Of a stretch of 64,000 nt of DNA, positions 58,981-64,000 are shown in pieces. How positions within the stretch are numbered: the first letter of the stretch is position 1; each line of letters begins with the position of its first letter. Source of the stretch: Carboxydothermus hydrogenoformans Z-2901 (GTDB lineage Bacteria; Bacillota; Z-2901; Carboxydothermales; Carboxydothermaceae); the NCBI RefSeq assembly GCF_000012865.1, contig NC_007503.1, positions 558,001 through 622,000 on the forward strand, in the 5' to 3' direction. The translations under genes were made by a program, and so were the position numbers. Below the pieces are notes generated by a model that saw only the letters and a program-made list of their open reading frames with translations, searched no databases and was not told the origin of the DNA.

Positions 58981-59644
58981 TTTATCCCAGGAAATTTATC
59001 AGGGAATGCCTGTTTTTCCCCTGCACCTTACTACGTACATCTTCCAAAACATAACCCATGAGGAGAGTATTAAAAAAATTGGCTTTCCCTTTGCTACCCG
59101 TAACTTACTGATGAACGAACACGGACCAACCCACTGTGATGCGGTGTACGAGTATAATCCTCAGGGTCCAACCATAGATAAAATGCCATTGGAGTATTTC
59201 CTGGGTCCGGCGATTTGTCTTGATGTATCTCATGTTCCGTACGAGCGCTACATTGAAATTTACGATTTGGAGGGGGCATTACGGAAACACGGACTTACCA
59301 TTGAACGTGGAGATATTGTTCTGCTTTATACCGGGCATTATAATCGCAACTACGGCACGGATAAGTGGCTAACTACCTATTCCGGTTTAAGCTATGCGGC
59401 GGCGGAATGGCTGGCCCAAAAGGGAGTAGTAAATATTGGGGTAGATGCTCCGGCTATTGACCATCCAGACGATCCCAACTACTCCGGTCATGCGGTTTGT
59501 GCGAAATACGGCCTTACCAATACGGAAAATTTAGCCAATCTTGATAAAGTGGCCGGAAAGCGCTTTTTGTATATTGGTCTACCGTTAAAAATTCGGGATG
59601 GTACAGGCTCTCCGGTGCGAGCGGTAGCTTTGTTAAACGAATAA
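58964..59644 (+). CDS. Cyclase-family (kynurenine-formamidase-like) metal hydrolase
   Basis: 226 residues, ATG within the end of sdaAA, behind AAAGGAGG. Fold of the cyclase/kynurenine formamidase/isatin hydrolase family, which open amide rings or cut formamides: IDLSQEIYQGMPVFP, RGDIVLLYTG, NIGVDAPAIDHP. The metal motif HXGTHXDAPXH is changed to HGPTHCDAVYE (H53, H57, D59, E63), so the last His ligand is Glu. Last gene of the purine operon. A 4-imidazolonase or related ring-opening role is a reasonable guess, not shown. Confidence 0.78.
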   Translation: MAKIIDLSQEIYQGMPVFPLHLTTYIFQNITHEESIKKIGFPFATRNLLMNEHGPTHCDAVYEYNPQGPTIDKMPLEYFLGPAICLDVSHVPYERYIEIYDLEGALRKHGLTIERGDIVLLYTGHYNRNYGTDKWLTTYSGLSYAAAEWLAQKGVVNIGVDAPAIDHPDDPNYSGHAVCAKYGLTNTENLANLDKVAGKRFLYIGLPLKIRDGTGSPVRAVALLNE

Positions 59645-59676
59645 GTTATGAATACAAAAAACATGCAAAATCCCCA

Positions 59677-59705
59677 TTGACAAAAAAATATTAATAAATT
59701 ATTCT
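59677..59705 (+). promoter_or_regulatory. Sigma-A promoter of the ANTAR-glnA unit
   Basis: Perfect TTGACA (59677-59682), 17-nt spacer, TATTCT (59700-59705). Transcription would start about 15 bases before the first leader hairpin. Confidence 0.78.
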
Positions 59706-59727
59706 CTAAGTATAGAAATGCATAGTT

Positions 59728-59800
59728 GGGCACAAGGGTGTGTCCGCTTCCTAAGTTAGCTGGCAATGGTGCCTTATTTAAGGCGCCATTTTCTATTTTT
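59728..59800 (+). promoter_or_regulatory. ANTAR-target leader with overlapping terminator
   Basis: Hairpin 1: GGGCAC / GTGTCC (59728-59733, 59740-59745) with hexaloop AAGGGT. Hairpin 2: GGC / GCC (59762-59764, 59771-59773) with hexaloop AATGGT. Both loops have A1 and G4, the recognition pattern of ANTAR proteins. Hairpin 2 shares bases with an 11-bp terminator stem (59765-59775 with 59780-59790) plus T-rich tail to 59800, so the two are mutually exclusive. The protein encoded just downstream has an ANTAR domain: autoregulation by antitermination is the likely function. Confidence 0.8.
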
Positions 59801-60415: not shown

Positions 60416-61744
60416 ATGAGTTACACCAAAAACGATATTATGGATATGGTGCGGGAGCAAAATGTTAAGTTTATCCGGCTCCAGTTTACCGACATTTTTG
60501 GGGTTCTAAAAAATGTGGCCATTCCGGTAGAACAGTTAGAAAAGGCCTTAAACAACGAGCTAATGTTTGACGGCTCCAGTATTGAAGGTTTTGTCCGTAT
60601 TGAAGAGTCGGATATGTATTTGCGTCCGGACCCCAATACTTTTGCCGTATTTCCCTGGCGGCCCAGAAACGGTGCGGTAGCCCGGCTGATTTGCGATGTG
60701 TACAATCCCGATGGTACTCCCTTTGAGGGCGACCCCCGCTATGTTTTGAAAAGAGCTTTGGCGGAAGCCAAAGAGCTGGGTTACACCATGTACGTTGGTC
60801 CGGAATTAGAGTTTTTCCTTTTCCAGGTAGATGCAGAAGGAAAACCCACCCTGGTGACCCATGACAATGCCGGCTATTTTGATTTAAGCCCGGTAGATTT
60901 GGGCGAAAACGCCCGGCGGGATATGGTGTTGGCTTTGGAACAAATGGGGTATGAAGTCGAAGCATCCCACCACGAAGTTGCTCCGGGACAGCACGAAATT
61001 GACTTTAAGTATTCCGATGCTTTAGATGTAGCCGATAAAATTGTTACCTTTAAAGTAGTTGTTCGTTCCATTGCCCAAAGGCACGGACTTCATGCAACCT
61101 TCATGCCCAAACCGCTTTTTGGGGTAAATGGTTCGGGAATGCACACCAACCAGTCGCTGTTTAAAGACGGTCAAAACGCTTTTTATGATCCCAATGGGGA
61201 GTTGCAATTATCCGAAACCGCTTACTACTATATTGGCGGTATTATGAAGCATATTAAAGCTATCACTGCCATTGCCAATCCGGTGGTAAACTCCTACAAG
61301 CGTTTGGTTCCGGGCTATGAAGCACCGGTTTACATTGCCTGGTCGGCAAGAAACCGTAGCCCCTTAATCCGGATTCCGGCCAAAAGAGGCTCCTCTACCC
61401 GGATTGAATTAAGAAGCCCGGACCCGTCGGCAAATCCGTATCTTGCCTTAGCGGTTATGCTTAAAGCGGGCTTGGATGGAATTAAAAATAAAATTAAGCC
61501 ACCGGCGCCGGTTAACCAAAACCTTTATGAAATGACTGCTGAAGAGCGAAAGGCTCTGGGAGTTGATACCTTACCCGGTAGCTTAAAAGAAGCCATTGAT
61601 TGTCTTTTAGAAGATAAGGTAATCCAGGAAGCTTTAGGTAAACACGTATTTGAGCGGTTTGTGGAAGCTAAGTTAAAAGAGTGGGATGAGTACCGGGTTC
61701 AGGTTCACGAGTGGGAAGTGAAAAAATATCTCACCATGTATTAA
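60416..61744 (+). CDS. glnA: Glutamine synthetase type I
   Basis: 442 residues from ATG 60416 behind AAAGGGGGA; the longer frame lacks a ribosome site and overlaps the regulator. ATP-dependent glutamate plus ammonia to glutamine. Motifs: [44 protein letters not shown] and [26 protein letters not shown]. Length and lack of the long insertion place it in the GSI-alpha group of Firmicutes, which is feedback- and protein-regulated rather than adenylylated. Co-transcribed with the ANTAR regulator, 13 bases apart, and ended by a terminator. Confidence 0.96.
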
Positions 61745-61746
61745 AA

Positions 61747-61779
61747 AGGCTGCCTGATTTAAAGGCAGCCTCTTTTTTT
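61747..61779 (+). terminator. Intrinsic terminator after glnA
   Basis: Perfect 9-bp stem AGGCTGCCT/AGGCAGCCT (61747-61755, 61763-61771) and a run of seven T. Confidence 0.93.
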
Positions 61780-61841
61780 ATGTTGTTTTTTAGTATATTA
61801 TATAGTTAAATTATAGCTATTTTTTATATCTGGTGAGAAAA

Positions 61842-63836: not shown

Positions 63837-63865
63837 TTGTCATAAAATTAAATATTCATTATAAT
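63837..63865 (+). promoter_or_regulatory. Promoter of the gene beginning at the window end
   Basis: TTGTCA (63837-63842), 17-nt spacer, perfect TATAAT (63860-63865), 15 bases before the first leader hairpin. Confidence 0.78.
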
Positions 63866-63879
63866 TTTACTACAACTTA

Positions 63880-63972
63880 CCGGCACAACGGCGTGTCGGA
63901 AATGCAGGGCATTGGCGCCTTCCTATCTCTCTGTAGGTATTCTTGTGCCTATAGAGGGGGGAAGGCTTTTTA
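63880..63972 (+). promoter_or_regulatory. Second ANTAR-target leader with terminator
   Basis: Hairpin 1: CCGGCAC / GTGTCGG (63880-63886, 63893-63899), hexaloop AACGGC. Hairpin 2: AGGGC / GCCTT (63906-63910, 63917-63921), hexaloop ATTGGC. Both loops have A1 and G4. The 3' arm of hairpin 2 is also the start of a long terminator: CCTTCC (63918-63923) with GGAAGG (63960-63965), and CTCTGTAGGT (63929-63938) with GCCTATAGAG (63947-63956), then CTTTT. Hairpin 2 and terminator cannot form together, as in known ANTAR switches. Confidence 0.85.
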
Positions 63973-63997: not shown

Positions 63998-64000
63998 ATG
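63998..64000 (+). CDS. Start of the next gene (only its ATG is in the window)
   Basis: The last three bases are ATG, preceded at 9 bases by GGGAGG (63983-63988). The product cannot be read. Because of the ANTAR leader it should be a nitrogen-related gene. Confidence 0.6.

Follow-up and report, generated by a model that had tools for sequence, protein, structure and literature searches.

Just upstream of an ANTAR gene in Carboxydothermus hydrogenoformans, an earlier sequence-only reading placed an autoregulatory ANTAR leader with two A1/G4 hexaloop hairpins overlapping an intrinsic terminator. Is this RNA an antitermination leader, which protein would read it, and to which signal would that protein respond? 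We addressed these questions in the window, i.e. the whole stretch of 64,000 nt that contains the locus.

Leader architecture and conservation

Re-examination of the sequence reproduced the coordinates of both hairpins, their loops and the overlap with the terminator exactly to the base, and an open reading frame with a Pfam ANTAR match indeed starts just 3' of the leader. The positions of all features are listed in Table 1. The stems closing the hexaloops each reach at least 3 bp. The loop and the 3' arm of P2 form the 5' arm of the terminator, with bases 59765–59773 common to both structures. The −35 and −10 elements of the promoter are also kept in two other Carboxydothermus species. The earlier reading mentions neither this promoter nor the length of the linker nor glnA, which follows the regulator gene after 13 nt.

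Table 1. Features of the leader and its operon, the second ANTAR element and the second ANTAR protein (positions in the window unless stated otherwise).
Feature	Position	Strand	Remarks
Sigma-70-type promoter, TTGACA-17-TATTCT	59677–59705	+	Consensus match only, 10/12 positions
P1 hairpin, GGGCAC-AAGGGT-GTGTCC	59728–59745	+	6 bp; hexaloop AAGGGT (A1, G4)
P1–P2 linker	59746–59761	+	16 nt
P2 hairpin (antiterminator), GGC-AATGGT-GCC	59762–59773	+	3 bp; hexaloop AATGGT
Intrinsic terminator	59765–59800	+	Stem 59765–59790 (11 bp, 4-nt loop), T-rich tail 59791–59800; mutually exclusive with P2
ANTAR response regulator, 195 aa	59815–60402	+	Degenerate receiver, coiled coil, ANTAR domain; PF03861 83.3 bits, full length, C-terminal; PF00072 38.7 bits
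glnA, type I glutamine synthetase	60416–61744	+	Second operon gene; PF00120 492.8 bits
Second ANTAR element, P1 CGGCAC-AACGGC-GTGTCG, P2 GGC-ATTGGC-GCC	63881–63919	+	9-nt linker; overlaps a long terminator (to ~63970)
Second ANTAR protein	L091:11413–11985		7.6 kb downstream, beyond the window; no Pfam receiver match

We scanned both strands of the 64 kb for a P1 stem of 6 bp or more combined with a P2 stem of 3 bp or more, each closing an A1/G4 hexaloop, where the P2 hairpin also overlaps a terminator. The scan returned two sites; 40 dinucleotide-shuffled versions of both strands gave 0.025 on average. The sites at 59728 and 63881–63919 both precede nitrogen-assimilation genes. Only one of 200 shuffled sequences folds better than the leader (z = −3.3).

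A homologue search with the regulator yielded 80 loci. About 25 of them, from Desulfotomaculum, Thermincola and relatives (Firmicutes), carry the same leader before the homologous ANTAR gene, and in nearly all of these glnA lies directly downstream. The ANTAR-glnA leader is conserved whatever gene stands upstream. Across 26 aligned leaders, 97% of the P1 cells are paired; 20 cells are altered on both sides, a level of covariation reached by 0 of 500 shuffles, and slid structures fail. Since covariance model R1 includes the window sequence, its E-value is circular. Model R2 was derived from 24 relatives and excludes Carboxydothermus. Its best match in the window covers 59728–59773 (27.6 bits, E = 3.4e-6), and the same site is its best match in the whole genome (2,401,520 bp, E = 1.3e-4). 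A model match at E ≤ 0.01 occurs in 54 of 299 genomes of the phylum. Weaker genome-wide matches (638887, 2169907, 1680061, 667682 and others) were rejected; none consists of two proper hexaloops and a terminator before a gene. These results support the assignment of 59728–59773 as a putative ANTAR target RNA of the dual-hexaloop antiterminator type.

Alternatively, the terminator might belong to the upstream cyclase gene, which ends at 59644, 120 nt 5' of the stem, and the hairpins might be accidental, or the region might be another kind of leader such as a riboswitch. These versions conflict with the chance rate of 0.025 per window, with the deep conservation before ANTAR-glnA irrespective of the upstream gene and with the promoter that stands between the cyclase gene and the leader. 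An Rfam scan of the window found no family at the gathering threshold; a GibS match at 59627–59798 scored 24.5 bits against a cut-off of 115 bits and was discarded. We regard both versions as very improbable.

The 3-bp stem of P2 had been taken as a hint that binding may depend strongly on the protein. The stem length holds and the predicted energies are consistent with this idea. At 37 °C we calculated −15.2 kcal/mol for the terminator and −2.8 kcal/mol for P2. At 65–70 °C, the growth range of the genus Carboxydothermus, a rough extrapolation with standard RNA parameters gives +0.3 to +0.8 kcal/mol for P2, which would therefore need the protein. Three base pairs are no peculiarity of this leader, however. 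A short P2 is normal, since the 26 aligned leaders always carry a GGC/GCC stem of 3 bp, save one G-U. Likewise, 3-bp stems are part of the published definition of the ANTAR target motif (PMC3369931), and protein contacts are confined to the three closing pairs (PMC8934654).

A departure from the A1 rule was observed in leaders of Thermincola and related bacteria upstream of the ANTAR gene (L010, L011, L014, L019, L024, L025, L028). The loops of their P2 hairpins, GGC-GAAGAA-GCC or GGC-GAGGAA-GCC, begin with G rather than A.

Spacing of the two hairpins

The linker between P1 and P2 is the feature in which the leader differs most from its relatives. Among 71 elements with E ≤ 1e-4, whose linker lengths were derived from match lengths, it measures 16 nt in all three Carboxydothermus glnA leaders and 4–12 nt in the 68 others. 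As the three belong to one lineage, the long linker counts as one event. The leader before glutamate synthase in the same genus has a linker of 8–9 nt. The three 16-nt linkers are equal in length and differ in their 5' halves (GCTTCCTAAG, GTTTTCAAAG and ACCCGAAGAG). A hairpin within the linker that would shorten the gap (CTT-CCT-AAG, or a predicted GCU/AGC) was dismissed, because in a by-eye comparison it is absent from the third Carboxydothermus genome.

With 16 nt, the glnA leader lies outside the range of 5–12 nt of the Enterococcus faecalis eut leaders. In vivo, induction was drastically reduced for an E. faecalis leader with a 14-nt linker (PMC3369931), and in vitro a 20-nt linker extension abolished antitermination in the EutV system (PMC8934654). 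On the other hand, linkers of 2–25 nt were allowed in curated actinobacterial elements (PMC8164766). A short linker is rather a preference of the EutV system than a rule of the whole family. For the Carboxydothermus leader, either the regulator may tolerate a wider gap or the leader may be less efficient.

One could also imagine a relic, in which P1 and P2 no longer act together because of the long linker and the terminator acts as a constitutive attenuator that ends a fixed share of transcripts. The exceptional length, the crippling effect of altered spacing in E. faecalis and the absence of a leader that relatives carry between regulator and glnA (see below) would fit such a decay. P1, P2 and the terminator, however, are intact in the three Carboxydothermus species, although the terminator loop and the linker's 5' half differ among them, and the linker length stays at 16 nt. 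Together with the wide range of actinobacterial linkers this makes a relic quite improbable.

The regulator and the second ANTAR protein

The regulator is 98% identical to its C. islandicus counterpart. Its relatives of solved structure are EutV (PDB entries 6WSH and 6WW6) and Rv1626 (1S8N). The RNA-contact residues R142, K143, K147, K149, E160, M172 and R175 of EutV are kept, while three others are altered (Y164F, N173D and R177S); R168 is replaced by Gln. Phenylalanine at the Y164 position is also the state of most homologues. In the receiver, D55 and K104 are kept, the first acidic residue is replaced by S10 and the Thr/Ser position is occupied by M82. Of 26 leader-bearing loci, 13 have E, Q or H in the phosphoacceptor column.

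The sequence-only reading had laid emphasis on phosphorylation and proposed a comparison of phosphorylated with unphosphorylated protein. This test appears doubtful, given the degenerate receiver of the present protein and the fact that half of the relatives with the leader have no phosphoacceptor aspartate. Pseudo-receivers are known in the ANTAR family, for example in AmiR (PMC3369936). Judging from the receiver residues, the loss of the aspartate in relatives and these known pseudo-receivers, the nitrogen signal may be something other than phosphorylation. As a guess, glutamine synthetase or PII could mediate direct sensing. We put forward only tentatively, as a possibility less likely than its opposite, the combined proposal that the glnA leader with its 16-nt linker is a working switch that breaks the EutV spacing rule and that its regulator senses nitrogen without phosphorylation, e.g. 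by contact of the pseudo-receiver with glutamine synthetase or PII.

The gap of 13 nt between the regulator gene and glnA was examined and contains no second leader, so glnA depends on the single leader upstream. In 16 relatives (L002, L003, L006–L009, L012, L014, L016–L019, L022–L024, L072) a second ANTAR leader lies between regulator and glnA, which places two antitermination sites before glnA.

There are exactly two ANTAR proteins in this genome, and the genes for both lie in the same nitrogen-assimilation region. The leader could thus be a true ANTAR target that is read mainly by the second protein and is cross-regulated instead of autoregulated. In all three Carboxydothermus genomes, however, the second protein carries Arg at the Met172 position and Asn at the Arg175 position. 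Met occupies the former position in 78 of 81 aligned homologues, and Met172 is essential for RNA binding by EutV (PMC8934654). The second protein may fail to bind hexaloops in the usual manner, and the adjacent regulator is therefore the better candidate. The missing receiver match of the second protein and the conserved pairing of the adjacent regulator with the leader speak in the same direction, and we consider cross-regulation unlikely. The probable reader of the leader, as judged from these comparisons, is the adjacent regulator. Of the original description as an autoregulatory leader, the antitermination part is supported by the hexaloops, the terminator overlap and the gene order in about 25 loci; autoregulation itself is suggested by the gene order and by the missing Met172 of the second protein.

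Proposed mechanism and related systems

The leader very probably mediates protein-dependent transcription antitermination and controls its own regulator together with glnA. We infer the following protein–RNA contact, binding protein, direction of effect and signal. Transcription would start at the promoter upstream of P1. Without active regulator, the nascent RNA would fold the 11-bp terminator and the polymerase would halt in the U tract, short of the regulator gene. An active ANTAR dimer would grip the hexaloops of P1 and P2, stabilise P2 and bar its 3' arm from the terminator, so that the polymerase would read on into the regulator gene and glnA. As the regulator gene sits behind its own leader, this would amount to positive autoregulation. 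Low basal read-through would supply the regulator, and nitrogen limitation would raise the levels of regulator and glutamine synthetase. An antitermination mechanism of this kind is established for EutV and eutP (Ramesh 2012; PMC3369931, PMC8934654). The linker beyond the spacing tolerated by EutV, the predicted instability of P2 at 65–70 °C and the altered EutV contact residues count against this reading.

The same regulator would probably also read the second element at 63881. This element, absent from the earlier reading, is conserved in two other Carboxydothermus genomes. It is preceded by a TTGTCA/TATAAT promoter at 63837/63860 and stands before a split glutamate synthase operon that starts at 63998. 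Behind this operon lie the second ANTAR gene, a short gene resembling glutamine synthetase, another one resembling glutamate synthase and a second full-length glnA. The short glutamine synthetase-like protein (L091:12072–13205, 377 aa), whose gene shares an operon with the second ANTAR gene, gives weak Gln-synt matches; it is possibly regulatory rather than catalytic.

A third, weaker candidate was found at genome positions 61718–61799 (L138:419–500), before a PII gene (Pfam P-II) and an ammonium-transporter-like gene. It comprises, in this order, a P1 with the loop AGTGCT, a P2-like hairpin with GATGAA over one terminator and GGC-AATGAA-GCC over a second, terminator-like hairpin. The candidate is conserved in three species. 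Its first P2 is non-canonical, with a loop starting with G and a stem of two pairs. It is a possible tandem ANTAR leader.

The EutV-responsive eut leaders of E. faecalis (PMC3369931) share the tandem A1/G4 hexaloop hairpins, the position of P2 over an intrinsic terminator and the receiver-ANTAR protein. The Carboxydothermus leader differs from them in that it would control its own regulator and glnA, in its longer linker, in the degenerate receiver and in having no kinase gene next to it. The ANTAR regulons of Desulfotomaculum reducens and D. acetoxidans (PMC3369931) resemble the present one in gene themes and in having several leaders per genome, and the bacteria are related. The Desulfotomaculum targets listed include genes for glutamate synthase, PII, Amt and glutamine synthetase; PII, ammonium transporters and both synthetases thus all appear in the 2012 target list (PMC3369931). 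The main text of that paper makes no mention of Carboxydothermus, and we found nothing usable in the literature on Carboxydothermus and ANTAR, Geobacter GnfR or clostridial NitR.

AmiR, which acts on the Pseudomonas amiE leader, is an ANTAR antiterminator with a non-phosphorylated pseudo-receiver (PMC3369936). AmiR is under the control of the amide sensor AmiC, whereas no comparable partner was identified for the Carboxydothermus regulator. NasR with the nasF leader and the NasST system likewise employ ANTAR antitermination of nitrogen genes and A1/G4 loops. They sense nitrate by a NIT domain or by NasS, whereas the Carboxydothermus protein has a receiver-like domain and is encoded next to glnA.

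The glnA leader belongs to a known type of nitrogen switch, and the long gap between its hairpins is the main oddity. It makes testable how rigid hairpin spacing is and how glnA-linked ANTAR regulators, many of which lack the phosphoacceptor residue, sense nitrogen; linker and receiver are the parts that deserve specialist attention. The locus presents a compact thermophile ANTAR operon of leader, regulator and glnA, and at least one more ANTAR leader stands in front of glutamate synthase. With such leaders before both glnA and glutamate synthase, antitermination probably governs how this CO-oxidising genus assimilates ammonium.
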